NCBI GenBank assembly: GCA_028875875.1
Contig: JAGWUV010000012.1
Coordinates: 1 to 64,000 of the forward strand
From: Bacteroidota bacterium
GTDB lineage: Bacteria; Bacteroidota; Bacteroidia; Chitinophagales; Chitinophagaceae
DNA length: 64,000 bases
Reading direction: 5' to 3'
Position 1 is the first letter of the stretch. Every line of letters begins with the position of its first letter. Made by a program: the position numbers and the translations under genes. Positions 35,663 to 51,629 of the stretch are shown piece after piece. The notes below the pieces were generated by a model that saw only the letters and a program-made list of their open reading frames with translations, was not told where the DNA came from and ran no database searches.

Positions 35663-35750
<88 letters not shown>

Positions 35751-35997: not shown

Positions 35998-37248
35998 ATG
36001 AATGCGAAAGTATCTGTACTCTTTTATGCAAGAAGAGCAAAAAAAACAACTGATGGGTTAATTCCCATCTATCAGAGAATTACAGTAGATGGCAAAAGAA
36101 TTGAGGTAAGTACCAAACGATATGTAGAATCCAACAAGTGGTCTGTCGAGCAAGGTCGTATGAAAGGCAATACCACTGAGGCTAGGTCCTTAAACACATA
36201 CCTTGAAATGTTGAAAGCAAAAGTGTATGAATACCAAAAAGAAATTATTCAGGAGGGTTTAGAAATATCATTCGATACCATGCGATCCAAAGTTTTGGGC
36301 ACCTCCGAAAACAAACGAATGCTCATCACCATCTTCCAGGATCATAATAATAAAGTAGAAGCATTACTGGGTGATGAATTCGCTCCGGGCACCTTAGAAA
36401 GATATAAAACATCACTCAAGCATACGCAGGATTTCCTGCAGTGGAAATATAAAATCTCGGATATTGATATTAAGCAAATAGACCACGCCTTCATTTGTGA
36501 TTATGAGTTTTACTTAAGAAGTGAACGTAAATGCAATAACAATACAGCCGTTAAATACATCAAGAACTTTGGCAAGATCATTCGTCTTTGCATGGCCAAC
36601 GGATGGCTGGATAAAAATCCTTTCGTAAACTACAAAGCCAAAGTGAAGGAAGTAGAAAGAGTATTCCTCACCTGGGATGAAATCATCGCTGTTCAGGAGA
36701 AAGTATTTACATCAGAACGACTCAACCTCGTAAAGGATATTTTCCTTTTCAGTTGTTATACAGGGCTCGCTTATATTGATGTGAAACAACTCACCCATAA
36801 AAACATATCCATCGGTATTGATGGTGAAAGATGGATTTTTAAGAACAGGCAAAAAACAGAAACCCGCTCCAGCATTCCACTCCTGCCCCCTGCCATGGCA
36901 ATCATTAATAAGTATAAAGATCACCCGCAATGCCTGATCGAAGAGAAGCTTTTACCGGTACTAAGTAATCAAAAGATGAACAGCTATTTAAAAGAAATAG
37001 CAGATGCTTGCGGAATCAATAAAGAACTAACCTTTCACATAGCACGTCACACATTTGCAACTACTGTAACCCTTACCAATGGTGTACCTATTGAAAGTGT
37101 AAGTAAAATGCTGGGTCATAAAAATCTCCGTACTACCCAGCACTATGCTAAAATCCTCGATCGTAAAGTGAGTGATGATATGCTTCTGCTCAAAGAAAAG
37201 CTCTCCGCCCTCCATCAGCAAGCCTCCAAAAAAGCAGCAGGGGAATAA
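35998..37248 (+). CDS. tyrosine recombinase (site-specific integrase)
   Basis: 416 aa phage-type integrase of the Bacteroidota family. An N-terminal arm-binding region is followed by a SAM-like core-binding domain (about 105-205) and the catalytic domain (about 225-400). Visible catalytic residues are His347 and Arg350 in HIARHTF, His374 in MLGHKN, and Tyr383 in TTQHYAKI. The first catalytic Arg is replaced: the site reads TGLAYID with Ala258, similar to IntDOT, where this position is also not Arg. It is placed to integrate at the adjacent tRNA-Ser. Confidence 0.93.
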   Translation: MNAKVSVLFYARRAKKTTDGLIPIYQRITVDGKRIEVSTKRYVESNKWSVEQGRMKGNTTEARSLNTYLEMLKAKVYEYQKEIIQEGLEISFDTMRSKVLGTSENKRMLITIFQDHNNKVEALLGDEFAPGTLERYKTSLKHTQDFLQWKYKISDIDIKQIDHAFICDYEFYLRSERKCNNNTAVKYIKNFGKIIRLCMANGWLDKNPFVNYKAKVKEVERVFLTWDEIIAVQEKVFTSERLNLVKDIFLFSCYTGLAYIDVKQLTHKNISIGIDGERWIFKNRQKTETRSSIPLLPPAMAIINKYKDHPQCLIEEKLLPVLSNQKMNSYLKEIADACGINKELTFHIARHTFATTVTLTNGVPIESVSKMLGHKNLRTTQHYAKILDRKVSDDMLLLKEKLSALHQQASKKAAGE

Positions 37249-37374
37249 TACCCCCTGCTTTGTTGATTAAAATTGAAGCCTTTTATACAATTCTGTAAAC
37301 ATTTAAATGTTTATTTCTATATATTGCCGCCCCTCCCCATCAGAATTGTAATTAGAAAACTGCAAAGATTGACT

Positions 37375-38616
37375 ATGCCTATGAATAAATCTTTGGAGCG
37401 GCTTTGTTGCGTCATTACGGAAATAGTGAGCCCTGCACCCGGTCATTCAACCAATGAGGAGGAATACCTGCTGCATTGTCGTGCCCTGATTGAAGAGGAA
37501 TGTAACGGCATCAAAAACTTCCTGGTAGAAGAAGTTGTTCACCAGGCTCGTAAAGAACGGGTACTGGAGTTGCTCATTCAGCATTACCAGTCTTCCTTAA
37601 TTCATTTGATTGATACCGTTGCCGCATGGGATACACAAAAGGATGCAAACGCTTCAGCACTCAAATCATTCCTTTTATTAAAGCTGGATGATATCCTTTC
37701 ACATATCCGCTGCCGTTACGCCAGGTATTTCAATCTGAATGAAAAGGTTCCGTTGCAGTATTTACAGTTGCACAAGCAGCAGTTAGCAGCTAAAACAAAG
37801 CAGTTGCAAAAACACCTGCAGAAGCTGGGCTTAGCGGCAGAACTGGTCACCATTGTACTGCAACCATTGCAAACTTTGATCAGTGGTAAATCGCATAACA
37901 GCACGTATCGTGATCTCTCCTATTTTAAAATGATGCTGGAAGAATTACTAAGCTTCACGGCAGAAGCTTCCTGCGATAAGCTTTGTTTCGAATTTTGCCA
38001 GGTACTTATTTACATCAACTTCAATGCACATCGCTTCATTAATTATTATATCGAGCATATGTTTAAGGCCATCAATTATGATGATATGCCTGCTAAACTG
38101 GAAACCTATTCACTGCAACTAAAAGCACTCAACCAGCTTTTAACCAAACCCAATGCAGAGTTGATAACGGGCAGCATCTCCGTAAAACAGGCTTTGCAGC
38201 AATGGTTGCAGGAAGAAGTGATATGGCTGGAGAAGAGAGCGCAGTACACTTTATTTCCGCATCGGGTGCCATCGATAGTGAATGATGAACCTGCCTTGCC
38301 TAAACAAAAAATCGCTACTACCCTTTCTGTGGATGACCTGGCTTGCTTTATCAAACTGTTGGTAGAGTCGGGTATCATAGCCAATAAAACAGATACTGAA
38401 CTCATCACTATTATCTCTCAAACCTTCTCTACCCGTAAAACGGAAAACATTGCATATAAAAGCCTCTACAATAAATACCATAGCATCAATCCAAAATCTC
38501 CGGCCATGGTGAAGGACCTGCTCTTTAAAATGATCGATACATTAAGAAAGCTTTCTTTATTCTTTATAATGCTCCCACAATTCGTGCCGGTCGATATAGC
38601 TGTTGATCTCCTGTAA
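37375..38616 (+). CDS. RteC-like mobile-element protein
   Basis: About 413 aa from the ATG at 37375, preferred over one at 37273 that would add an unlike hydrophobic leader. It is rich in helices and Gln/Leu. The C-terminal part SVDDLACFIKLLVESGIIANKTDTELITIISQTFSTRKTENIAYKSLYNKYHSIN resembles the tail of RteC-type regulators and of hypothetical proteins that sit beside integrases in Bacteroidota elements. RteC in CTnDOT activates excision genes. Identity is only partial, and the call rests on this tail and on the position behind the integrase. Confidence 0.5.
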   Translation: MPMNKSLERLCCVITEIVSPAPGHSTNEEEYLLHCRALIEEECNGIKNFLVEEVVHQARKERVLELLIQHYQSSLIHLIDTVAAWDTQKDANASALKSFLLLKLDDILSHIRCRYARYFNLNEKVPLQYLQLHKQQLAAKTKQLQKHLQKLGLAAELVTIVLQPLQTLISGKSHNSTYRDLSYFKMMLEELLSFTAEASCDKLCFEFCQVLIYINFNAHRFINYYIEHMFKAINYDDMPAKLETYSLQLKALNQLLTKPNAELITGSISVKQALQQWLQEEVIWLEKRAQYTLFPHRVPSIVNDEPALPKQKIATTLSVDDLACFIKLLVESGIIANKTDTELITIISQTFSTRKTENIAYKSLYNKYHSINPKSPAMVKDLLFKMIDTLRKLSLFFIMLPQFVPVDIAVDLL

Positions 38617-38778
38617 ATAGTGCATAGAAAAGCCCGGATACCTCAACCAGTTCCGGGCTTCTGTTTCTAATAAATCTTGCAGTGTATTAAAACCCTGTAG
38701 TGAAAGCAGTTGCTTTAATGATTCACTCCAGGGCAAATCATGTACCGGTGTTTGTAATATGTCTGGTGTTTGATTCAT
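38557..38778 (-). CDS. orphan RNA polymerase alpha-CTD-like mini-protein
   Basis: 73 aa, almost all of it a helix-hairpin-helix fold like the C-terminal domain of RNA polymerase alpha. PVHDLPWSESLKQLLSLQGF aligns with the alpha-CTD start (PV-DL...LK). NTLQDLLETEARNWLRYPGFS matches the part ending in LL-x-x-P-x-[LF]-G-x-x-S, and HYLQEINSYI matches the last helix. The gene is on the opposite strand and its last 60 bp overlap the tail of the RteC-like gene. It could act as a nucleic-acid or polymerase-binding module. No such stand-alone protein is known to me from this class of island. Confidence 0.6.
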   Translation of the reverse strand: MNQTPDILQTPVHDLPWSESLKQLLSLQGFNTLQDLLETEARNWLRYPGFSMHYLQEINSYIDRHELWEHYKE

Positions 38779-38936
38779 GATGATGTATCCTCAAAAAAGT
38801 TCATTACTGCACTTCTCACACAAAAATAAATTTTTATTCAAATGCTTGCAAATAGTGCATTCTATTGGGGTGGCACAACCCCTGCCACTGTTTTAAAATG
38901 ATGTAATCAGCTTGGTTTGCAATCAAAATAAAGCCT

Positions 38937-39206
38937 ATGTCCGTTAACATCATTACACAGGAAGATCTGCTTGAATTCAGGATCAAATTACTGGAAGACA
39001 TCCGCAATTTACTCCACACCAAACCGGCCAAACCCAAGCAATGGCTTAAATCATCCGAAGTAAGAAAACTCTTGCAGATCTCTCCGGGTACTTTGCAAAA
39101 TCTTCGTATCAATGGTACACTTTCCTACACCAAAATCGGCAGCATCATTTACTATAACTACGATGATATCGAAGCGCTGCTCGAAGGCACCAAAGCCAGG
39201 AACTAA
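38937..39206 (+). CDS. excisionase-like helix-turn-helix protein
   Basis: 89 aa. A short helical N-terminus is followed by a MerR/HTH_17-type domain: QWLKSSEVRKLLQISPGTLQNLRINGTLSYTKIGSIIYYNYDDIEALL. The pattern of deciding helix, NLR/R-x-x-G-x-L and IGxxxYYxxxDI is typical of excisionase-like DNA-binding proteins in Bacteroidota elements. It probably controls excision or the genes next to it. It has its own ATG at 38937. Confidence 0.82.
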   Translation: MSVNIITQEDLLEFRIKLLEDIRNLLHTKPAKPKQWLKSSEVRKLLQISPGTLQNLRINGTLSYTKIGSIIYYNYDDIEALLEGTKARN

Positions 39207-39261: not shown

Positions 39262-40233
39262 TTGAACTACATCAAACTACTCGCTGCATTCTTCGATAAG
39301 GTAGCTGCCGATGACAGGCTCAATCCTACGCATATCAGTATGTATGTGTCGCTCTTCCAGTTCTGGAATGCCAGCCGCTTCCAGAATCCTATCAGCATTT
39401 CCCGCGGGGAATTAATGAGGGTGAGTAAGATCAGTGCAAAAGCCACCTATCATAAATGCATGAGGGAATTGCATGAGTTCGGTTATGTAAGGTATCAGCC
39501 TTCTTACAATCCTTTTAAAGGTAGCCTGGTTTACCTGTTCAGTTTGCAGTCGGGTGATGAACAGGTATTGGAGAGCAGCCAGACTACTGCTGATACTGGT
39601 ACTGAACCGCTGGGGCTTGACCATACTAATAATTGGACTGGTACTGAACAGGCACAAGATCGCAGCTATACCAAAAAACAGTCAGGTACTGAACAAGCAC
39701 TAGTAGCACACCGTACTAAAATCGAAACAGGTTCTGAACAAGCACAAGAGCCTTATATAAACAGTATAAATAGTATAAACAAAACATATAGTGTGTGTGA
39801 GCACACACACGAGCACAACAATGATTTTTTACAAAAAAATTTTAAAAGCGACCTACCCTCCCCCTGCGGGGAGGGCAAGGGAGGGGCCGTAGAAACAAGA
39901 AAAGAAAAAAGTTGCGCTAAAAAAGAAAAGAAGGCGGAGAGGAATTTTATGGCACCGGGTTTACAGGAGGTAGTGGATTATTTTCTGCTGAAAGAATATT
40001 CTTCACTCGAAGCAGAAAAGTTCTTCAACTACTTCCAAAGCAATGGCTGGCTGGTGGGGGGTAAAACCAAAATGATCAACTGGCAGGCGGCTGCCCGCAA
40101 CTGGATACTTAACATTCCTAAGTTTTCAGCCACTATACCTAAAAGTTCAACTCCCGTTCCTAAAGGTGATCGGGTATTGAATGCAAAACAGTTGCACGCT
40201 TCCACTGAAAAAGAATACAATGAGCCTCTATGA
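39262..40233 (+). CDS. replication-initiator/DnaD-like protein of the island
   Basis: 323 aa with a TTG start (NYIKLLAAFFDKVAADDRLNPTHISMYVSLFQFWN is the natural N-terminus and no ATG fits). The first 95 residues form a winged-helix (SRGELMRVSKISAKATYHKCMRELHEFGYVRY). The middle has imperfect repeats of TGTEQAQ/SGTEQAL/TGSEQAQ. A DnaD-like C-terminal part (VVDYFLLKEYSSLEAEKFFNYFQSNGWLVGG) follows. A REP-like palindrome lies inside the linker. It overlaps the DnaC-like gene by 14 nt. Together they may form the island's replication initiator and helicase loader. Confidence 0.65.
   Translation: MNYIKLLAAFFDKVAADDRLNPTHISMYVSLFQFWNASRFQNPISISRGELMRVSKISAKATYHKCMRELHEFGYVRYQPSYNPFKGSLVYLFSLQSGDEQVLESSQTTADTGTEPLGLDHTNNWTGTEQAQDRSYTKKQSGTEQALVAHRTKIETGSEQAQEPYINSINSINKTYSVCEHTHEHNNDFLQKNFKSDLPSPCGEGKGGAVETRKEKSCAKKEKKAERNFMAPGLQEVVDYFLLKEYSSLEAEKFFNYFQSNGWLVGGKTKMINWQAAARNWILNIPKFSATIPKSSTPVPKGDRVLNAKQLHASTEKEYNEPL
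39855..39887. repeat. REP-like palindromic sequence inside a coding region
   Basis: A 33-bp GC-rich stretch with CTCCCCCTGCGGGGAG and a following AGGGAGGGG, a pattern of short interspersed palindromes common in Bacteroidota. It lies in the linker of the initiator-like protein and is read in frame as PSPCGEGKGG. Confidence 0.6.
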
Positions 40234-40888
40234 ATTGCACATGGCTTCTCCGGCTACTGCTACGAATGGTTCCGGTACGGGTACCATTCAGTGCCGCTAC
40301 AACTATGTAGAGGCATGGCAATGGCTGCAACAGAAAGGCCGGGAAACTTTTGGGAATGGTTTTCTTTTACATGAGGAAGATAAAGCGCCTATCCTGCTCC
40401 TGCTATGCTGGTTTCTTCGTGATGAAATAGCAGCGCCGCAGTTGGGCATAAGCTTACAGAAAGGCATACTCTTAACCGGACCGGTGGGCTGTGGTAAAAC
40501 AGCTCTCATGAAACTGATGCAGTATATCACTCAGCAACCTTTTATCATCAAGCCTTGCCGGGATATTGCTTTTGAGTTCATGGATGAAGGTTTCTCTACT
40601 ATCCTTAAATACAGTCGTGGCTTATCTGGCCAGCCCCGGGTATTTTGCTTTGATGATCTGGGCGTAGAAAGCAGCTTGAAATACTATGGCAATGAATGCA
40701 ATGTACTGGCAGAAGTATTGCTTTCGCGGTACGATCTGTTCATTGCTCATGGTTTGCTTACGCACATTACCACCAACCTGTCTGCCGGGGAAATAGAACA
40801 GGCCTACGGCAACCGTATCCGTAGCCGTATGCGGGAACAGTTTAACCTCGTTGCGTTTGATAAAGAGGCGGTGGATAAAAGAAGATAA
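40220..40888 (+). CDS. DnaC-like AAA+ ATPase (helicase loader)
   Basis: 222 aa from the ATG at 40220; a longer frame from 40181 adds 13 residues inside the previous gene. Walker A is ILLTGPVGCGKTALMKL, Walker B is RVFCFDDLGVES, and the sensor-like LTHITTNLSAGEIEQAYGNRIRSRMREQF ends with the arginine-finger type RIRSRM. These match DnaC/IstB-like ATPases. The gene overlaps the initiator-like gene by 14 nt, so the two are coupled. A role in loading a helicase on the island's replication origin is inference. Confidence 0.75.
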   Translation: MSLYELHMASPATATNGSGTGTIQCRYNYVEAWQWLQQKGRETFGNGFLLHEEDKAPILLLLCWFLRDEIAAPQLGISLQKGILLTGPVGCGKTALMKLMQYITQQPFIIKPCRDIAFEFMDEGFSTILKYSRGLSGQPRVFCFDDLGVESSLKYYGNECNVLAEVLLSRYDLFIAHGLLTHITTNLSAGEIEQAYGNRIRSRMREQFNLVAFDKEAVDKRR

Positions 40889-41270: not shown

Positions 41271-41510
41271 ATGGAACTTAAATCAGCACCGTCTGAAAAA
41301 CACATACATGAGTTCCGGGAATCAATCGGACAAAAAATCCGGGAACTGAGAGAAAAAAAAGGCTATAGCCAGGATGCACTTGCTGAAATCATGCAGGTGC
41401 ATCGTTCTACTATATCCAAAGTAGAAACAGGCAAGTTTGCGATCACTGTTGATTATCTGATAAAGTTTGGCTGGTACCTTGATTTTGACATTGAGTTTAA
41501 TATCAAATAG
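41271..41510 (+). CDS. XRE-family HTH regulator (probable controller protein)
   Basis: 79 aa single helix-turn-helix: QKIRELREKKGYSQDALAEIMQVHRSTISKVETGKFAITVDYLIKFGWYL. The position just ahead of vsr and the methyltransferase fits a controller (C) protein of a restriction-modification system, which times nuclease expression after methylation. A perfect TGTGTTAACACA palindrome before the methyltransferase gene is a plausible target. The control role is inferred from context. Confidence 0.8.
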   Translation: MELKSAPSEKHIHEFRESIGQKIRELREKKGYSQDALAEIMQVHRSTISKVETGKFAITVDYLIKFGWYLDFDIEFNIK

Positions 41511-41523
41511 GAAGTGTAGTAAT

Positions 41524-41952
41524 ATGGCAGATGTTCATTCAAAAGAAACCAGAAGTTACAATATGAGCCGGATCAGATCCAGGGATACAAAACCTGAATT
41601 GCTGGTCAGGAAATATTTGTTTGCCAATGGTTTCAGATATAGGCTGCATGTAAAAGATTTGCCAGGTAAACCGGATATTGTGCTTCCAAAATACCACACT
41701 GTAATATTTGTCAATGGTTGCTTCTGGCATGGTCATGAAAATTGTAAATATTTTGTAATGCCCAAGACAAAAACAGAATGGTGGCAAAAAAAAATTGAAA
41801 GAAATAAGGAACTGGATATTGAAAATGAAAAAAAACTGAAGGGCTTGGGATGGCGTGTAATTAATTTATTTGAATGCCAGTTAAAGAAAAACAAAATAGA
41901 GCTTACATTAAAACAATTGCTGGATAAACTAACAATGAATACCAGTTTTTAG
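41524..41952 (+). CDS. vsr: very-short-patch mismatch repair endonuclease (Vsr)
   Basis: 142 aa from the ATG at 41524, 13 nt behind the regulator; an upstream start at 41467 would overlap it. MADVHSKETRSYNMSRIRSRDTKPELL matches the Vsr N-terminus. GKPDIVLPKY holds the catalytic Asp, and IFVNGCFWHGHENC with LFECQL match the Zn/His-bearing region. Vsr nicks at T:G mismatches left by deamination of 5-methylcytosine, so it repairs the mutations caused by the cytosine methyltransferase encoded next. This is a supporting member of the defence operon. Confidence 0.93.
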   Translation: MADVHSKETRSYNMSRIRSRDTKPELLVRKYLFANGFRYRLHVKDLPGKPDIVLPKYHTVIFVNGCFWHGHENCKYFVMPKTKTEWWQKKIERNKELDIENEKKLKGLGWRVINLFECQLKKNKIELTLKQLLDKLTMNTSF

Positions 41953-42044
41953 TATTGTGACATAATCTTTTCTGGAAATTGATAAGATTATACACCTATG
42001 TGAAATAAAAGCTAACAGATTTAAGTTTATCAGGTATAGTTTTA

Positions 42045-42056
42045 TGTGTTAACACA
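42045..42056. promoter_or_regulatory. candidate operator TGTGTTAACACA
   Basis: A perfect 12-bp palindrome 10 nt before the methyltransferase ATG, right behind a TAGTTTTA sequence that resembles a -7 box (42037-42044). A weaker CACctatGTG symmetry lies near 41993. Binding by the XRE regulator would cover the transcription start, but this is inference. Confidence 0.5.
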
Positions 42057-42066
42057 CCTAGGATAA

Positions 42067-43317
42067 ATGACAATGAATTATATAGACCTCTTTGCCGGTG
42101 CCGGCGGACTTTCTGAAGGATTTATTCGTGCAGGGTTTAATCCTGTTGCCCATGTTGAAATGGATGAAGCTGCTTGTTATTCACTAAAAACTCGCGTTGC
42201 CTATCATTATCTTAAGGCCAATAATAAATTTAAACACTATGCAGATTACCTGAGGGGAGATATCAACAGATCTGAACTTTATGAATTAATTCCAGATTCT
42301 ATTATAGACAGTGTTATTAACCTTTCAATAGGCGCAGATAATAATGAGAAAATTCATCGTTTGATTCAGAAGCAATTAGGAGATAAAGAAGTCGATCTGA
42401 TTATCGGTGGCCCTCCCTGTCAGGCTTACTCGTTGGTTGGCCGTGCAAGAAGTGAAAACAATATGAATGGAGATCCCAGGAACTACCTGTATGTTCAATA
42501 TGCCAAATACCTTGAGAAGTATAGGCCAAAAATGTTTGTATTTGAAAATGTCCTTGGCTTAAAATCTGCAAAAGGAGGTTTGTATTTAAAGAATATGGAA
42601 AAACTCTTTTTAAAGAAGGGTTATAAGATGGAATTGTTTACCGTTGAAGCAAATCAGTTTGGTGTTCTTCAAAACCGAAAACGTGTGATAATAATTGGAT
42701 GGAAGAACGATTTTATACCTAACATTCCCAACTTGGAAAGTATTAATGAATACTCTTCATTTCAGGTAGGTGAAATATTTTCGGATTTACCATTTTTAGC
42801 AGCAGGAGAAGGTGTTGATAAATACCAGCATTATAGCAACAAGGCTAGTAAATATCTTGTACAAAATCACATGAGAAATGGCATAGATGTGCTGACTCAG
42901 CATATTGCTAGGCCTCATACAAAGCAGGATAAAGAAATTTATAGAATTGCAGTAAATAAATGGGAAAAGGAAAAAAAGCGGCTCGACTATAATGACCTTC
43001 CTGAACGTTTGAAAACTCATAAAAACAGACATTCGTTTTTTGACCGCTTTAAAGTAGTTGCTCCTGATCTGAATTATTCACAGACAGTGGTTGCGCATAT
43101 TGCAAAAGATGGGCACTACTACATTCATCCGGATATTGAACAGAATCGGTCAATTAGTGTGAGAGAAGCAGCTCGGTTACAATCTTTTCCAGATGATTAT
43201 TATTTTGAAGGTGTAAAAGAAACTGCTAACAGAACAGCAGCTTTTAAACAAATTGGAAATGCTGTGCCGCCACTAATGGCACAAGCATTAGCAAAGACAA
43301 TCAGCCAATTCTTTTAA
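42067..43317 (+). CDS. dcm: DNA C5-cytosine methyltransferase
   Basis: 416 aa. Motif I is YIDLFAGAGGLSEGFIRAGF, motif IV with the catalytic Cys is IIGGPPCQAYSLVGRA, motif VI is FVFENVLGL, motif VIII is NQFGVLQNRKRVIIIGW and motif X is AFKQIGNAVPPLMAQALA. All key motifs are intact. An insertion after motif II-III (about 45-115) differs from small type II enzymes, and the target-recognition part between motifs VIII and IX decides specificity, which is unknown. It overlaps the DUF3883 gene by 1 nt. It likely marks self DNA for the downstream nucleases. Confidence 0.93.
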   Translation: MTMNYIDLFAGAGGLSEGFIRAGFNPVAHVEMDEAACYSLKTRVAYHYLKANNKFKHYADYLRGDINRSELYELIPDSIIDSVINLSIGADNNEKIHRLIQKQLGDKEVDLIIGGPPCQAYSLVGRARSENNMNGDPRNYLYVQYAKYLEKYRPKMFVFENVLGLKSAKGGLYLKNMEKLFLKKGYKMELFTVEANQFGVLQNRKRVIIIGWKNDFIPNIPNLESINEYSSFQVGEIFSDLPFLAAGEGVDKYQHYSNKASKYLVQNHMRNGIDVLTQHIARPHTKQDKEIYRIAVNKWEKEKKRLDYNDLPERLKTHKNRHSFFDRFKVVAPDLNYSQTVVAHIAKDGHYYIHPDIEQNRSISVREAARLQSFPDDYYFEGVKETANRTAAFKQIGNAVPPLMAQALAKTISQFF

Positions 43318-44096
43318 TGGAACCAACACACAAACTAACCCTTTACATTTCATACTACTTGTCAAGATTCAATAACGAAGCTCTTGATAATCTAGGTTAT
43401 ACTACATGGAATAACGCATTTGAGGACATAGGGAAAAGGCTAAATGTTAAGCCTCATTCTGTAAAAAATTGGAGAGATGAATTTGACCCATTATTTGGTC
43501 ATCGTGCAGGCTGGTACCAAAGGCCAATGAGCCCAAGTCGAGTTAAAGTTGTACAGGCGCTTGAAGATTTAAATGAATCCCAAATTAGAGGTATTGCAAC
43601 TGATATATTAACTGGGAAAATTAAATCAGACCCTGAGGAAGTGGAACAGCTACTTTCGATAGTTACAGATGATACAAAAGATAAGATTCCCCGAAAATTT
43701 ATTTTGAGAGCACCAACGGGCAAAGCGGCTGAAAATTATTTTATTCAATATTACAAAGAAACATTTAACCCAATAAAAGGCACTTTGATCGACTGCAGAG
43801 ATTTAGGATGCGGCTATGACTTTAAAATCGAATCAAATGGTTCAAAGACTTATATTGAAGTTAAAGGATTGGCTGATTTTTCAGGTGGGGTTTTGTTTAC
43901 CGATAAGGAATGGCAAGTAGCAACCGAAAAAGGAGAAGATTTCTTTTTGTGTATTATAAAAAATGTCAACGAAAATCCTGAAATCAATTTTATTCAAAAT
44001 CCAGCTTTTAAAATAAAGCCAAAGAAAAATATTTATACAACAATTCAAATAAATTGGAGTGTAACTGAAAAAGACTTAAACACGCTCAATGCTTGA
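43317..44096 (+). CDS. DUF3883-type PD-(D/E)XK protein of the defence operon
   Basis: 259 aa. The N-terminal half (about 1-110, with NAFEDIGKRLNVKPHSVKNWRDEFDP) looks like a DNA-binding helical domain. The C-terminal half is the DUF3883 fold: GKAAENYFIQYYKE, LGCGYDFKI and TYIEVKGLADFSGG provide the D...ExK pattern of PD-(D/E)XK nucleases. It could be the restriction nuclease or its specificity part. It overlaps the GHKL ATPase gene by 8 nt and the methyltransferase by 1 nt, so it is translated with them. Confidence 0.8.
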   Translation: MEPTHKLTLYISYYLSRFNNEALDNLGYTTWNNAFEDIGKRLNVKPHSVKNWRDEFDPLFGHRAGWYQRPMSPSRVKVVQALEDLNESQIRGIATDILTGKIKSDPEEVEQLLSIVTDDTKDKIPRKFILRAPTGKAAENYFIQYYKETFNPIKGTLIDCRDLGCGYDFKIESNGSKTYIEVKGLADFSGGVLFTDKEWQVATEKGEDFFLCIIKNVNENPEINFIQNPAFKIKPKKNIYTTIQINWSVTEKDLNTLNA

Positions 44097-45543
44097 TTAT
44101 TCGAAATACCAAATCGCTGCTGCCGACCCCGAACCATCTTCAATGATTGAAACATTCAGGGCTATTGGTTATAGTTTACAAACAGCTGTTGCAGATATAA
44201 TTGATAATTCTATTTCTGCTAATGCTAAAAATATCTGGATTGATTTTGAATGGAAAGGAGCTGCAACATGGCTGTCAATTAAAGATGACGGGATAGGTAT
44301 GTCCTCAGATCAAATAATACAGGCAATGCGGCCAGGCAGCAAAAACCCAAACGAAGAACGTTCAGTTAAAGATTTGGGCCGCTTTGGTTTGGGTTTAAAA
44401 ACAGCTTCATTTTCACAATGCAGAAAGTTATCGGTTGTTTCTAAAAGAACAGATACTACCCCCTCCTTTTGGACATGGGATTTGGACTTTGTAAAAGATT
44501 CACATGCATGGAATCTCATTCAGTATTTACCCGATCAGTTTAATAATAGTTTGAAGGACATGCCATCCGGAACAGTAATTATCTGGAACGACCTGGATAG
44601 GCTGGTTAAAAACTTAAATGAAAACGATAAAAATGCTTTAGATAAATTCATGAAAGAAATGGATGATGTGAAAAAGCATTTGGCAATGGTATTTCATCGT
44701 TTCATTGAATCCAAAAGAGTAAAACTAATTTTTCAGAATCGTGAAATTGAACCATGGGATCCTTTTTTAATCGACCATTCTGCTACACAAAAATTTCCTG
44801 AAGATCCCTTGCTTAATAATAAAATTCGTGTGCGGGGATTTGTTTTACCACACAAATCTAAACTCACTGAGCAGGTCTTCGAAGTTGCAAAAGGTACTAA
44901 AGGCTGGAACGCACAGCAGGGTTTCTATATTTACAGAAATGAACGTTTATTGGTGGCCGGTGATTGGTTAGGAATGTTCAGAAAAGAAGAACATTACAAA
45001 CTGGCAAGAATTCAGATAGATCTTCCCAACAACATGGATGCAGAGTGGCAGATTGATATAAAAAAGTCAATTGCCCGCCCCCCTTTTTCATTAACAGATC
45101 AACTGAAGGCATACGCAGTTTCCGTTAGAAATCAGGCCGTCGAAGTATACAGGCACAAAGGAAAAATATTGCAAAGAAAATTCGCGAATGTGCAATTTCA
45201 GCCTGTATGGCTTGAAAAAATAAGGCATGGAAAACGATTTTTTGAAGTCAACAGAGAACACCCTGTTATTCAGTCCCTGATAAATTCGTCTGACATTAAT
45301 CAGTTGCTGCGCCTCATTGAAGAAACTGTACCCGTTCCATTGATTACTATAAGAGAAAGCGAACAGCCTGAATTACAAGGTCAGCCATTTGAGGAATCAG
45401 ATCAGGAACCCGTGAAAAAACTGATGAAGGAAATGTATCATCAGTTAATAACAAATGGGAGGTCAGATGAACAGGCTAAGTCAATAATTTTAAATATAGA
45501 ACCATTCAATTTATATCCTCATTTCGCAGAATATTTAAATTAG
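44089..45543 (+). CDS. GHKL ATPase (MORC/MutL-like) of the defence operon
   Basis: 484 aa. The Hsp90/MutL/MORC-type ATP site is clear: N-box AVADIIDNSISANA with Asp36 and Asn40, G1 DDGIGM at 66-71, G2 GRFGLGLKTAS at 97-107. The part behind 230 resembles the transducer domain (VRGFVLPHKS, GFYIYRNERLLVAGDWLG). Iyer, Abhiman and Aravind described such MORC-like ATPases in bacterial restriction-modification operons, where ATP binding is thought to drive DNA clamping. It overlaps the upstream gene by 8 nt and is 3 nt from the Z1 gene. Confidence 0.88.
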   Translation: MLDYSKYQIAAADPEPSSMIETFRAIGYSLQTAVADIIDNSISANAKNIWIDFEWKGAATWLSIKDDGIGMSSDQIIQAMRPGSKNPNEERSVKDLGRFGLGLKTASFSQCRKLSVVSKRTDTTPSFWTWDLDFVKDSHAWNLIQYLPDQFNNSLKDMPSGTVIIWNDLDRLVKNLNENDKNALDKFMKEMDDVKKHLAMVFHRFIESKRVKLIFQNREIEPWDPFLIDHSATQKFPEDPLLNNKIRVRGFVLPHKSKLTEQVFEVAKGTKGWNAQQGFYIYRNERLLVAGDWLGMFRKEEHYKLARIQIDLPNNMDAEWQIDIKKSIARPPFSLTDQLKAYAVSVRNQAVEVYRHKGKILQRKFANVQFQPVWLEKIRHGKRFFEVNREHPVIQSLINSSDINQLLRLIEETVPVPLITIRESEQPELQGQPFEESDQEPVKKLMKEMYHQLITNGRSDEQAKSIILNIEPFNLYPHFAEYLN

Positions 45544-45546
45544 GAA

Positions 45547-48300
45547 ATGATGCTTCAGAATGCTATCCGAACAATTAGAACACTTTTACCTTCATCGGGT
45601 TTTGTAACCCCGGAACAAATAGAAGAGGCAGTAAATACTATACTCGTAATACCTCAGTATTCCAATATTGACAGGCAGTTATTGATAAGAGAAGTACAGG
45701 CATTATATAACATACGGATAGAAGATTTTAGGATTATAGAAGTGCATGAAAGACGAAGGCCATGGTTGTCCGAAAGGAAAAGTTCTGTAACATGGTCTTT
45801 TTGGAACAGATACAGAGATTACCTGGAGATTGAAAAGAATTTTTCACCGGAGGTATTAAACAAAGCAGACCGGCTCACAGACCAGATCCTGGATGCCTTA
45901 TTTGATCCTTCTATGAATGGAAGGATCGATAAAAGAGGATTGGTCGTAGGTCAGGTGCAATCAGGTAAAACCTCAAATTATACCGGCCTGATTTGTAAAG
46001 CCGCAGATGCAGGATATAAACTAATTATTGTTTTAGCGGGCATACATAATAATCTAAGAAGTCAGACGCAGCTTAGATTAGACGAAGGTTTTTTAGGTTT
46101 CGACACACAGCATCAAAGGGCTTTTAACCAGAATAATTTATGGATTGGTGTTGGTAATATTAACCGGGGTATAATTGCTCATTCTCTCACTTCCAGTATG
46201 GAAAGAGGAGATTTTACAGCTGGTGCAGCGAATGCACTTGGCCTGAACTTTAATACAAATGAACCAATCATTGCCGTAGTTAAAAAGAATGCCAGTGTTC
46301 TAAACAGACTATTACAATGGCTATTGGCACAATCTCATGAGGCAGCAGATGGTAGCCGTGTCATAGGGAATAAGTCTCTTCTTATGATTGATGATGAAGC
46401 GGATAACGCATCTATTAATACCAGGCCGGTCGATGATGGAGCGACGAGGATAAATGAGTTAATAAGAAATATTTTAAGGTTATTTGATAAAAGCGGATAC
46501 GTCGGTTATACAGCAACTCCGTTTGCTAATATTTTTATTCCGCTGACAGATGACGATTTATTTCCAAGAGACTTTATAATAAATCTGCCTGCGCCATCCA
46601 ATTACATTGGCCCGGAAAAAGTATTCGGCTTTGATTTAATAGAAGATGATGATGATTCTGATTCAGTATTGCCGATTGTCAGCCGAATAGATGATTTCCA
46701 AACTCTTATTCCAAATGGTCATCAGAGAAATGATACACCTCCGGCCTCAGTACCTGATTCTCTCAGATTAGCTGTAAAATGCTTTATACTTACCTGTGCA
46801 GTTAGAAGACTAAGGGGGCAGGTGAACGTTCACAACTCTATGCTGGTTCACGTAAGCAGATTTATAAATTGGCAGAGGGATATCAAAAACCTGGTGGAAA
46901 GTGTTTTTGATTTTTACAAGCGTGGTATTGAATTTAATATACCTGCAATTTTGGAAGAGCTTCGTATTGCTTTTGAAGAAGATACAGATAACTATAAGTC
47001 ATACAGAACAACCTCTCAGCAGATTATAAATAGCAGCCTGTCAGATATAGATACTGGTATTCAGATTCATACATGGTCTGAGGTTTTACCTTTATTAAAT
47101 GATGCTGCTTCGAGAATTATTGTACGTGAAATCAATGGTGGCTCAGGAGATGTCTTAAATTATTATGATCATACAAACGGTCTTTCTGTAATTGCAATCG
47201 GAGGCGATAAATTATCCAGGGGATTAACATTGGAAGGTCTTTCGGTAAGTTATTATTTACGGGCATCAAGAATGTATGATACCTTAATGCAAATGGGAAG
47301 ATGGTTTGGGTATCGCCCGGGTTATGTTGATTTGTGCAGGTTATTTATCAGTCGCGAACTGAACGAATGGTTTTGTCACATTACACTTGCATCGCAGCAA
47401 CTAAGGGATGAATTTGATTATATGTCTGATGTTGCCAGTAGTACGCCAGACCAGTATGCCTTGAGAGTAAGAACTCATCCGGGCGTACTTCAAATTTCAG
47501 CATCCAATAAAATTCGTCGGGCAGTAGAAGTTCAGGTATCATGGTCAGGAAGATTAGTTGAATCGTATGAGTTATCAAAAAACAGTCTGATCATTGAAAA
47601 GAATATAAGAGCTGCAGTACAGATGATCAATCAAATGGGAAATAACTATGAATCAGGCAGAAATTTTTATCTGTGGCGGAGCGTCAATCTTAGTCTTATC
47701 AAGGTATTCCTGCGTGGTTTTGAAACATACGATAATTTAAAATCTGCATCACCCGCTAATTTGCTTCGCTTTATTGAATTAAATGAAAGGTATAATGAAT
47801 TAAGTAATTGGTCTGTAGGTATCATATCCAAAGAAAGGACAGCTAAACGATACAATGTAAATAATTTGAATATTGGATTAATTAAAAGAACACAGGACAG
47901 AGATAAATCCAATAATGAATTGTACTATATCAGGAAATCACATATTATAAGTCCTGCTGATGAATTTATTGATTTAACAGAAGATGAAATCCGGAATTCT
48001 TTAGTTCGGACAGAGCAGCTTTGGAGAGAAGCAGGAAAAGTGGGGACTCCTGTTCATCCTTCCGGGGAAGTGGTAAGAAATACTGTGAGAAAACCCAATA
48101 GACCATTGCTGCTTTTATACTTTCTGGATGGAGAAGAAAGCGCCGCTTTACAGATTCAAATACCTGTTGTTGGTTATGCAATAAGCTTTCCCGCAAATGA
48201 CCGCGATGATTCAGTCAGCTTTGCAATAAATGAACAATTACTAAATCAGTTTAACCAACAGGACGAAACAGAAATAACTCAGGAAGACGATGAAGATTAA
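45547..48300 (+). CDS. Z1-domain helicase-like ATPase of the defence operon
   Basis: 917 aa. The Z1 domain family is recognised by the P-loop GLVVGQVQSGKTSNYTGL (Walker A, residues 131-148), Walker B LLMIDDEADNAS, GYTATPFANIFIP, IAIGGDKLSRGLTLEGLS and QMGRWFGYRPGYVDLCRL, which form a superfamily-2 helicase-like core. Such proteins are found with MORC-like ATPases and PD-(D/E)XK nucleases in restriction-type operons. It starts with ATG ATG at 45547/45550, 3 nt behind the ATPase stop. Its last 11 nt overlap the DUF4420 gene. Translocation along DNA is inferred. Confidence 0.92.
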   Translation: MMLQNAIRTIRTLLPSSGFVTPEQIEEAVNTILVIPQYSNIDRQLLIREVQALYNIRIEDFRIIEVHERRRPWLSERKSSVTWSFWNRYRDYLEIEKNFSPEVLNKADRLTDQILDALFDPSMNGRIDKRGLVVGQVQSGKTSNYTGLICKAADAGYKLIIVLAGIHNNLRSQTQLRLDEGFLGFDTQHQRAFNQNNLWIGVGNINRGIIAHSLTSSMERGDFTAGAANALGLNFNTNEPIIAVVKKNASVLNRLLQWLLAQSHEAADGSRVIGNKSLLMIDDEADNASINTRPVDDGATRINELIRNILRLFDKSGYVGYTATPFANIFIPLTDDDLFPRDFIINLPAPSNYIGPEKVFGFDLIEDDDDSDSVLPIVSRIDDFQTLIPNGHQRNDTPPASVPDSLRLAVKCFILTCAVRRLRGQVNVHNSMLVHVSRFINWQRDIKNLVESVFDFYKRGIEFNIPAILEELRIAFEEDTDNYKSYRTTSQQIINSSLSDIDTGIQIHTWSEVLPLLNDAASRIIVREINGGSGDVLNYYDHTNGLSVIAIGGDKLSRGLTLEGLSVSYYLRASRMYDTLMQMGRWFGYRPGYVDLCRLFISRELNEWFCHITLASQQLRDEFDYMSDVASSTPDQYALRVRTHPGVLQISASNKIRRAVEVQVSWSGRLVESYELSKNSLIIEKNIRAAVQMINQMGNNYESGRNFYLWRSVNLSLIKVFLRGFETYDNLKSASPANLLRFIELNERYNELSNWSVGIISKERTAKRYNVNNLNIGLIKRTQDRDKSNNELYYIRKSHIISPADEFIDLTEDEIRNSLVRTEQLWREAGKVGTPVHPSGEVVRNTVRKPNRPLLLLYFLDGEESAALQIQIPVVGYAISFPANDRDDSVSFAINEQLLNQFNQQDETEITQEDDED

Positions 48301-49282
48301 TGAAATTTGGAATGAAATAGAAAATGATAAATCATTAGCAAACGGACTTTTGCTAAGAAGATATTCGGCAGAAGTTAATCCGGATATATATGTTGCGTTG
48401 CGTCAGCCTGAAAATGTACGTTGTCTGGCGATAAGACTTTCGGGTGAAAGTAACCCTGATCTTTCTTTGTACAGTGATTTGAAAGATATTGATCTTGAAA
48501 TTATACCCGATGAAAAGAATGCTCCGGCCTTTTATCTGTTGATAGTACTAAAAACTAAACAGCATGATGATGTTTTTGCAACACTTTGCGAAGATTTAAT
48601 AAATCGGATTAAAGCCTTTACTATCGAAAAAATAATGTTAAAAGAGTTATTTATTCGTCTGGAAAAATGGAAGTCCCTTTTCAGCAAAGCTTCACAATCA
48701 GGCCTTTCAATGTCTGAGCAGCTCGGTTTATATGGTGAGCTTTATTTTTTGAAAAAATTAATTCTTTCCGGCACATCGGCAATTCGTGGTATTACGTCAT
48801 GGATTGGCCCTGAAAAACAGCCAAAGGACTTTCAGTTAGAAGATTGGGCGGTAGAAGTAAAAACCTCTGCAGGTAAAAACCATCAGAAAATACAGATCAG
48901 TAGTGAAAGACAATTAGATACGAGTAACCTGTCAAATCTTTTTTTGTTTCATCTCTCACTCGAAGGGCAGCAACAAAATGGAGAAACTTTGAATGAGATA
49001 ATTCAATCTTTAAATACTATTCTTGACCAGGATTCTTATAGCAGAAACCTATTATCGGTAAAGTTGTTGGAAGCTGGTTACTTTAGTTATCATTCAGGCT
49101 TGTATGAGTCAATTGGTTACCGGATCAGAAAGGAAACTTATTATAAGGTTAAAGATAATTTCCCTCGGATTGTGGAAAGGGATCTTCGTAATGGTGTAGG
49201 CGATGTTCAGTACACGATAATCCTTTCTGACTATAGCACTTATGTTGTGAATGAAAATTTTGTGTTTGATTTAATTAAATAA
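48290..49282 (+). CDS. DUF4420 PD-(D/E)XK protein of the defence operon
   Basis: 330 aa. The nuclease-like core is in the second half: GLYGELYFLKKLI, then DFQLEDWAVEVKTSAGKNHQKIQIS, which gives the D...ExK pattern of PD-(D/E)XK enzymes. This family almost always sits next to Z1 and AIPR genes. It overlaps the Z1 gene by 11 nt and is 1 nt from the AIPR gene. With the DUF3883 protein this makes two putative nucleases in one operon. Activity has not been shown here. Confidence 0.85.
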   Translation: MKINEIWNEIENDKSLANGLLLRRYSAEVNPDIYVALRQPENVRCLAIRLSGESNPDLSLYSDLKDIDLEIIPDEKNAPAFYLLIVLKTKQHDDVFATLCEDLINRIKAFTIEKIMLKELFIRLEKWKSLFSKASQSGLSMSEQLGLYGELYFLKKLILSGTSAIRGITSWIGPEKQPKDFQLEDWAVEVKTSAGKNHQKIQISSERQLDTSNLSNLFLFHLSLEGQQQNGETLNEIIQSLNTILDQDSYSRNLLSVKLLEAGYFSYHSGLYESIGYRIRKETYYKVKDNFPRIVERDLRNGVGDVQYTIILSDYSTYVVNENFVFDLIK

Positions 49283-49283
49283 A

Positions 49284-51629
49284 ATGGCTGAGAATACTGA
49301 TAATATTGAGCTTAAAAAGTTTTATGTAAATCTTCAGCAGGACATCCGGACAGATCAATTGTCCGATGAAGAAGGTGGAACGCTTGAGCAGTTATTTACG
49401 CAATATGCAGGTAATTTTTTATCAGGCTCTGGTGAAGTTGAAAATATTAGGGTTGCATATGATGAGAAGATTCTGAAAACAGGTGTTCAGCACAAAATCA
49501 ATGCATACGCATTATCTGATAATTACGAAACACTTGATCTTATCATAACAGTATATAATGGCACAGATGAAGTATCTGTTGTCTCTAAAGCTGAAATAGA
49601 TAAGGCGTCTAAAAGAGTTTCGAATTTTTTTAAAAATGCTGTTTACAAGGATTATGTGAATGAAATTGAAGAGTCCTCTGAAATCTTTCAGTTAGCTGCA
49701 TCTTTGGCAGAATATAAGGATATCAAAGATTCTTTGGTTAGAGTCAACCTTCTGATTCTTACAGATGGCCTGTATATGGGTGAGCCTCCGGTTAGTCATT
49801 CTATTTCAGGGTATCCTGTTTTCTTTAAAGTTGTAGACATAAACTACTTGTATAATATTTCTGAAAAATCACATATCCCTATTGAAATTGATTTTAAATC
49901 TGATGGTTTTAAAATTCCATGCATTAAATCACCTTCTGTTAATGAGGAATACCAGTCTTATTTGGCAATTATTCCAGGAGATGCTTTGGTAAATATTTAC
50001 GAGCGTTTTGGTTCACGTTTACTGGAACAAAATGTTCGTTCATTTTTACAGTTCACAGGCAAGGTCAACAATGGTATAAGGCAAACGATTTTAAATGAGC
50101 CGCATATGTTTCTTGCTTTTAACAATGGTATCGCTGCAACAGCTGATTCTCTTGAACTGGAAAATTCTGAGGATGGTCTCGGGGTATACATTAATAGCGT
50201 TAAAGATCTTCAAATAGTAAATGGTGGTCAGACAACAGCCTCAATTTATTATACCTGGAAAAAAGACAAACGAAACGTATCAAATGTTTTTGTCCAGGTA
50301 AAGTTATCTGTAGTAAAAAACAAGGAAAATTTCAGCAGTATAGTTAGTCGTATATCAGAATATGCGAATACTCAAAATAAAGTTTCTGTTTCTGATTTAA
50401 GTTCTAACAGACCATTTCATATCGAAATGGAAAAACTATCACGTAATATTTGGGCACCACCTGCTGAAGGCTATTCTGTACAAACAAGGTGGTTTTACGA
50501 AAGAGCGAGAGGCCAGTATAAAAATGCCAGAAAAAAGGAAGAATATTCAAAGTCTAAGGTAAAAGCTTTTGATTTAAAGAATCCCAAAAATCAAATGTTT
50601 ACTAAAGAAGACCTTGCCAAATATATAAATTCATATGAAGAAGTTACCGATGCAAAAAAGATCATTATTGGCCCACATTTCGTAGTAAAAGGGAATCAAA
50701 AGAACTATGTTCAGTTTATGAATCATAACCTTCCGGGAAAAATAGATAGTGTATATTTTGAGGATCTTATAGCTAAAGCAATTCTTTTTCGGGCTGCTGA
50801 GAAAAAATATGGTGTTAAACCAAATTCAATTGGTGACATGCGTTATGTGACTGTTCCTTACACTATAGCTTATCTGAATTATAAAATAAAATCCAAGCTG
50901 GATTTGTACAAAATCTGGAAGGCTCAGAATATTTCAGAAAATTTAAAAGTGCTGCTTTTTGATCTGATGATTGAAGTGGAAAATTTCATAAAAAACAATG
51001 CTCCCAGGTCTTTATACGGAGAATGGGCGAAGAAAGAGGAATGCTGGCTTGAGCTTAAGAAGCAGGAGTTCAATATAAACTATGAATTAATTAAAACTGA
51101 TCTTGAAACAGCCAGTTCAAATATTTCAAGAAGAAGAATCAACATAGAGGATAATGCCCATTTGCAGATAGCAGAAGATGAGCAGAAAATAAAGTCTATA
51201 CCCTCAAAGATTTGGCAGGCCATAGAGGAATGGGGTAAAACAACTGAAATGCTTTCTGTTCAGCAACAGAATCTTGCCTGGAATCTTTCTGTTAAAGTAA
51301 AATCTTTTTCTAAATTGACTGACTATGAAAGGATAAGTGGATGTAAAATTTTAGATATCGTAATTGAAAACGCATCAGATCTGTTGGAAGATGTTGATGA
51401 AATAAACGAGTCTATCAATACCCCCTCTCAAAATACCACTCCCCCAGAAATAACTCTTGATGTTATAAAAAAAATGGTCGATTGGGATAGAAAAAATAAA
51501 AGACTAAAACCTCATCATTTCAGGTTAATGTTCGATATAGTTAATGGTAAAGAAGAGCTTACAGAACAAAACAAAAAATATTGCCTAATGAATTACAATT
51601 TTATCTCAAAATATGGGTTTAAAATCTGA
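49284..51629 (+). CDS. AIPR family protein (phage-resistance associated)
   Basis: 781 aa. The AIPR core is at about 270-390: FLAFNNGIAATADSL, the hallmark DLQIVNGGQTTASIYY, and NVFVQVKLSVVKNKE ... RISEYANTQNKVSVSDL. The family was first linked to abortive infection by phages, and its members accompany Z1/DUF4420 modules. It is the last gene of the operon. Its biochemical role is unknown; it may bind nucleic acid or act as effector. The C-terminal 250 residues are helical without a known domain. Confidence 0.88.
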   Translation: MAENTDNIELKKFYVNLQQDIRTDQLSDEEGGTLEQLFTQYAGNFLSGSGEVENIRVAYDEKILKTGVQHKINAYALSDNYETLDLIITVYNGTDEVSVVSKAEIDKASKRVSNFFKNAVYKDYVNEIEESSEIFQLAASLAEYKDIKDSLVRVNLLILTDGLYMGEPPVSHSISGYPVFFKVVDINYLYNISEKSHIPIEIDFKSDGFKIPCIKSPSVNEEYQSYLAIIPGDALVNIYERFGSRLLEQNVRSFLQFTGKVNNGIRQTILNEPHMFLAFNNGIAATADSLELENSEDGLGVYINSVKDLQIVNGGQTTASIYYTWKKDKRNVSNVFVQVKLSVVKNKENFSSIVSRISEYANTQNKVSVSDLSSNRPFHIEMEKLSRNIWAPPAEGYSVQTRWFYERARGQYKNARKKEEYSKSKVKAFDLKNPKNQMFTKEDLAKYINSYEEVTDAKKIIIGPHFVVKGNQKNYVQFMNHNLPGKIDSVYFEDLIAKAILFRAAEKKYGVKPNSIGDMRYVTVPYTIAYLNYKIKSKLDLYKIWKAQNISENLKVLLFDLMIEVENFIKNNAPRSLYGEWAKKEECWLELKKQEFNINYELIKTDLETASSNISRRRINIEDNAHLQIAEDEQKIKSIPSKIWQAIEEWGKTTEMLSVQQQNLAWNLSVKVKSFSKLTDYERISGCKILDIVIENASDLLEDVDEINESINTPSQNTTPPEITLDVIKKMVDWDRKNKRLKPHHFRLMFDIVNGKEELTEQNKKYCLMNYNFISKYGFKI

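Follow-up and report, generated by a model that had tools for sequence, protein, structure and literature searches.

A stand-alone alpha-CTD-like protein family encoded beside an RteC-like gene in mobile elements of Bacteroidota

The island and its genes

The window analyzed here, i.e., the entire 64,000-nucleotide stretch of contig JAGWUV010000012.1 from a member of the Chitinophagaceae, harbors an island in which a tRNA-Ser is followed in order by genes for an integrase, an RteC-like protein, a small alpha-CTD-like protein, an excisionase (xis)-like protein, a protein of cluster C12 and an AAA ATPase. The relevant features are:

35663..35750, plus strand: tRNA-Ser (TGA), the likely integration site
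35998..37248, plus strand: tyrosine recombinase (integrase) beside the tRNA-Ser (PF00589/PF13102/PF17293)
37375..38616, plus strand: convergent RteC-like gene, supported by a family alignment (ORF 37273-38616)
38557..38778, minus strand: gene for a stand-alone alpha-CTD-like protein, ATG start, 73 aa (ORF and reciprocal profile matches to the rpoA CTD)
38821..38852, minus strand: putative Bacteroidota-type promoter, with TTTG (38852-38849), 20 nt and TATTTTTG (38828-38821)
38870..38888, unstranded: inverted repeat GTGGCA-N7-TGCCAC in the stretch separating the alpha-CTD-like and xis-like genes
38937..39206, plus strand: HTH_17/excisionase-like gene, divergent from the alpha-CTD-like gene (PF12728, E=4e-9)
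39262..40233, plus strand: element gene of cluster C12, conserved in related islands in its place behind the xis-like gene
40181..40888, plus strand: AAA ATPase gene of cluster C15 (PF00004, E=4.5e-5)

The putative RteC-like regulator gene thus sits upstream of the xis-like gene, a location that would be compatible with its activating the xis/excision operon. A gene similar to the latter also lies near the module in four other loci (L146, L151, L153 and L155), and a relative of the C12 gene adjoins a true RteC gene in L132. No repeat of the 3' end of the tRNA-Ser was detected in the 64-kb window. Further along, positions 41524-51629 carry the defense cargo of the island, comprising a Vsr endonuclease, a C5 methyltransferase and MzaB/C/D/E-like genes, as recognized by PADLOC.

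A previously unrecognized family of small proteins

The initial annotation of this DNA had placed an ATG-initiated ORF of 73 aa on the minus strand at 38778-38557, with a 60-bp overlap with the opposite-strand RteC-like ORF (37273-38616); both the position and, for the window copy, the overlap are confirmed. Relatives were collected by tblastn in the class and family and by profile searches in the order and phylum. This yielded a family of 14 strongly matching copies (the window, G344, G610, G689, G512, G594, G514, G692, G603, G471, G531, G1005 and two in G526), all of which are stand-alone ORFs of 72-77 aa. Among close-relative pairs drawn from G594, G514, G692, G603 and G531 the dN/dS of these genes is 0.09-0.27, comparable to the 0.13-0.17 of the RteC-like genes from the same genomes, which indicates that the close relatives are under purifying selection. 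Given these 14 homologous copies, their conserved linkage and the low dN/dS values, the ORF is more than a chance occurrence: it is a real gene and defines a family that had not been recognized previously.

The opposite reading, namely that the ORF is spurious, lies antisense to the neighboring gene and resembles a known domain by chance, draws on its shortness, its 60-bp overlap with another ORF and a single-sequence Pfam score below threshold. It has to contend with the 14 strong copies, the signature of purifying selection in close relatives, the constant linkage and the little or no overlap between the two genes in most relatives; its probability appears negligible, and for the family as a whole we reject it on the grounds of selection and linkage. 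The overlap itself is a local matter. The conserved part of the RteC-like protein ends at approximately 38553, and the ~20 codons that follow extend the ORF locally into the alpha-CTD-like gene; in relatives the spacing ranges from an overlap of a few bp to a gap of ~150 bp. Hence, an antisense overlap does not hold up as a shared feature and is confined to this copy.

No relatives were recovered from the IMG/VR viral contigs or the plasmids that we searched. The sole match in the genome-contig search, covering 27 residues in an alphaproteobacterial bin (L006), was treated as a chance hit. The predicted pI within the family ranges from 5.0 to 9.3 without a consistent basic charge; as the family and the rpoA CTDs cannot be told apart by net charge, we abandoned it as an argument. 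A further short alpha-CTD-like ORF of 72 aa is present in a same-class genome near an ECF-sigma-like gene (L162:1477-1695, minus strand).

Homology to the RNA polymerase alpha-CTD

The initial annotation had described the protein as little more than an alpha-CTD, a claim that stands at the level of profiles and not at that of the single sequence. On its own, the 73-aa ORF matches Pfam PF03118 (RNA_pol_A_CTD) with E=0.11 and 12.7 bits, short of the cut-off of 23.8, and the NCBIfam rpoA model with E=0.037; PF03118 matches two of the 11 family members tested (best E=0.019). When the host genome is searched with a profile of rpoA CTDs, only rpoA itself (3e-40) and the 73-aa ORF (0.0036) are recovered, and a family profile built without the window sequence finds this ORF as its single match there (1.1e-18). 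In reciprocal fashion, the family profile also picks up rpoA C-termini in many Bacteroidota genomes; across 398 genomes of the order, the further matches of a 13-member profile are rpoA C-termini and a few short stand-alone ORFs. Searched against the PDB, the same profile retrieves RNA polymerase alpha-CTDs (6wmp, E=1.3e-4; 1doq, 0.005), with the RAD51C N-terminal domain as the second match (E=0.0025). A direct hhalign comparison of the family with rpoA CTDs gives a probability of 96.3% and a score of 50 over 65 columns without gaps, as against scores of 12-15 for XRE, RteC and RteC-like profiles and of at most 15.5 for 30 column-shuffled alpha-CTD alignments (all controls, 10-15.5). Taken together, these profile comparisons indicate that the stand-alone protein is homologous to the rpoA CTD over its full length. 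The single-sequence AlphaFold model of the ORF is of low confidence (pLDDT 72, pTM 0.51), and a Foldseek search with it returned no significant match in the PDB; it places helices at residues 17-28, 33-44 and 52-64, which we take to be the expected sites of alpha-CTD helices 1, 2/3 and 4, respectively.

The RteC-like neighbor

Of the 396 genomes available for the taxonomic family, 77 carry the gene that the initial annotation had labeled RteC-like, and its label could not be sustained as a statement of homology. The RteC profile PF09357 has no match at these loci in the 17 genomes searched, and in six of the same 17 it exceeds its cut-off at other loci; an hhalign comparison of the family with true RteC gives P=0.1. 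Searches of Pfam, NCBIfam and the PDB produced no match of weight, and a single-sequence structure of an 82-residue C-terminal stretch found no significant match with Foldseek. The likeness to RteC is thus positional, or at best very remote in sequence terms, and as the protein has no recognized domain its role as a regulator is likewise assigned by position. It resembles the RteC of CTnDOT-type elements in being a likely regulator situated before an excisionase-like gene or among tra genes, and differs from it in length (~400 aa vs ~290 for RteC).

Linkage across mobile elements

All 14 strong copies adjoin an RteC-like gene in a tail-to-tail arrangement, with that gene being broken at one of the two loci in G526. 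They are located in integrase-bearing islands and in CTnDOT-like conjugative transposons, and the genes found next to them include those for integrases, xis-like proteins and TraE/F/G-type proteins. The search for the gene beside integrases in other Bacteroidota, suggested by the initial annotation, thus shows it conserved in the vicinity of both integrase and excisionase-like genes. Relative to the integrase, the module in L146 and L153 is inverted with respect to the window. The broken locus of G526 (L144:8834-9880) retains an intact alpha-CTD-like gene, whereas its RteC-like gene falls into two open frames, with an internal stop reported, and is a decaying module.

Once one close clade is set aside, identity among the RteC-like proteins is no more than ~15-40%, which implies that the linkage is old. 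The distance matrices of the two proteins are correlated (Mantel r=0.94, 13 pairs), and when the close clade is reduced to one copy the correlation is r=0.59 (p=0.006). The partner is present at 13 of the 71 RteC-like loci examined and lacking at the remaining 58, and hence the RteC-like proteins can do without it. On the RteC-like tree its presence is scattered (8 changes vs 11.3 when shuffled), as expected under repeated loss or gain. Several of the partner-less loci have a tra-side gene directly after the RteC-like gene.

In elements of the conjugative-transposon type, which have TraE/F-like neighbors (DUF4134, DUF4133), the alpha-CTD-like gene and a gene for a 77-aa XRE protein are transcribed divergently. 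Such a divergent XRE repressor gene flanks nine of the 14 strong copies, as well as the distant copy in L155, and 17 RteC-like loci without an alpha-CTD-like gene also lack this XRE gene in the stretch examined. Around seven conjugative-transposon copies, the surrounding 20 kb contain the palindrome GCGGYCT-N4-AGRCCGC exactly once, always between the XRE and alpha-CTD-like genes; it is a candidate operator. No XRE gene adjoins the window copy, the nearest one being at 41271. More distant stand-alone relatives occur in other regulatory settings: those of L112/L155 lie beside XRE and HTH_17 genes and have no RteC-like gene next to them, the RteC-like gene being ~13 kb away, and two others (L114:1459-1731, plus strand; L122:1447-1680, minus strand) lie immediately 3' of a gene for a CheY-like response regulator.

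Sequences upstream of the alpha-CTD-like gene

The Bacteroidota promoter consensus is TTTG-N17-23-TAnnTTTG. The element at 38821..38852 matches it exactly, and a scan of the 64-kb window on both strands finds the pattern only seven times; as the pattern was not found at the corresponding place before the genes of the relatives, this match carries little weight. The inverted repeat GTGGCA-N7-TGCCAC is a possible operator.

In four relatives a conserved, very stable hairpin of ~170 nt lies directly upstream of the alpha-CTD-like gene:

L144:10196-10372, minus strand: upstream hairpin
L146:7373-7548, plus strand: upstream hairpin
L153:9775-9935, plus strand: upstream hairpin
L154:9770-9942, plus strand: upstream hairpin

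The individual folds have energies of -59 to -72 kcal/mol with covarying pairs, and the hairpin has no match in Rfam. A covariance model built from it (R1) detects weaker, dispersed copies in several genomes, including that of the host (G000:C54:37976-38157); hence, the hairpin could be dispersed or mobile in nature rather than a leader of the gene.

Replacement of the DNA-binding residues

R265 and N268 are critical for DNA binding by the alpha-CTD (PMC11434276). In the family, the positions equivalent to E. coli R265, N268, C269, G296, K298 and S299 retain the E. coli residue in none of the 13 aligned members, whereas all 25 rpoA sequences compared keep it. The R265 position is occupied by G/S/E/N/D, N268 by D/E/Q or others, C269 by M/L/V or others, G296 by T/S/N and S299 by H/Y or others, while that of K298 is an invariant H (13/13). 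In effect, residues of the T-Y-H-H type replace the GKKS motif of the hairpin. We take C269, G296, K298, S299 and E302 to be further DNA-binding residues of the E. coli alpha-CTD; of these, E302 is kept in 13/13 members, as is the hydrophobic core. The family also departs from Bacteroidota rpoA at the sites equivalent to the 261 and 287 determinants of E. coli, with 261 being Pro in 11 of 13 members. Further, none of the strong members is linked to an alpha-NTD.

Discussion

These observations bear directly on the role suggested by the initial annotation, in which an isolated alpha-CTD may redirect the host RNA polymerase or bind UP elements and activators, considered here as a protein that binds UP elements or is incorporated into the polymerase. 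The homology to the alpha-CTD is what recommends it; nevertheless, UP-element binding appears unlikely as E302 is the one DNA contact to persist, every one of the 13 members having replaced the others, and service as a polymerase subunit is similarly unlikely in a protein that has no alpha-NTD to join by. Neither of these two roles is supported, and we accord them a very low probability. A decoy or bridge that mimics the activator-touched surface of the alpha-CTD, and thereby titrates activators away from the polymerase or bridges them to alter host or element transcription, would use the same homology in a different way. It accords with the regulatory neighborhoods of the family, including those of distant relatives that are immediate neighbors of a response-regulator gene, but sits poorly with the divergence of the 261 and 287 positions from the rpoA of Bacteroidota and with a linkage to element genes rather than to any particular host activator; we view it as a minor, though genuine, contender.

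The alpha-CTD is a member of the HhH/SAM-like superfold. Such an affiliation, together with the RAD51C match and the nearby integrase and xis-like genes in the window, L146 and L153, raises the alternative of a helix-hairpin-helix accessory of DNA transactions or recombination, for instance, a cofactor that assists the integrase and Xis in excision. This appears rather unlikely, given that the hairpin has lost its GKKS motif, that most conjugative-transposon copies are not adjacent to an integrase and that the family has no consistent basic charge.

The explanation we prefer, with middling confidence and on the strength of sequence comparisons, is that the family comprises alpha-CTD homologs that have lost the DNA-binding surface and probably function as protein–protein adaptors or antagonists within the regulatory module carried by integrative and conjugative elements (ICEs) of Chitinophagaceae and their relatives. 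The small protein would bind the RteC-like regulator, the XRE regulator or both, and this contact might tune transcription of the xis/excision operon in islands of the window type and of the tra operon in conjugative transposons. The RteC of CTnDOT controls excision and transfer genes (PMC1976400), and thus the position of the module fits a control of mobility. A more specific version, which we advance only tentatively, is that an alpha-CTD was captured and stripped of DNA binding to become an adaptor that links the XRE and RteC-like proteins to the polymerase or shields them from it. Were such a mimic or adaptor real, it would offer elements a new way of coupling their regulators to the host polymerase or of insulating them.

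The fold family is known, and the stand-alone proteins share with PF03118 nearly full-length similarity over the 65 ungapped columns, the retained core and E302 and agreeing positions of the predicted helices. They differ in being stand-alone, below the Pfam cut-off and encoded by mobile elements, and in the replacement of six DNA-binding residues, with an invariant His at the K298 position. As for the rteA/rteB/rteC system of CTnDOT, the likeness lies in regulators of excision and transfer that belong to a conjugative transposon of Bacteroidota carrying genes of the TraE/F/G type, and the difference in the XRE, alpha-CTD-like and RteC-like trio of the elements described here; the CTnDOT regulators named in PMC1976400 include no alpha-CTD-like protein. 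A literature search of limited coverage returned nothing relevant on stand-alone or mobile-element alpha-CTD proteins, and within that coverage the subfamily, its lost DNA face and its fixed place in the module are apparently undescribed. What emerges is a protein family tied by homology to the transcription machinery and placed in a presumed ICE regulatory module of Bacteroidota, with a trio of genes that is compact and can be tested in Chitinophagaceae amenable to culture. On the side of rpoA itself, we also observed a genome with two different rpoA genes in tandem (G1044, L131:673-2777).
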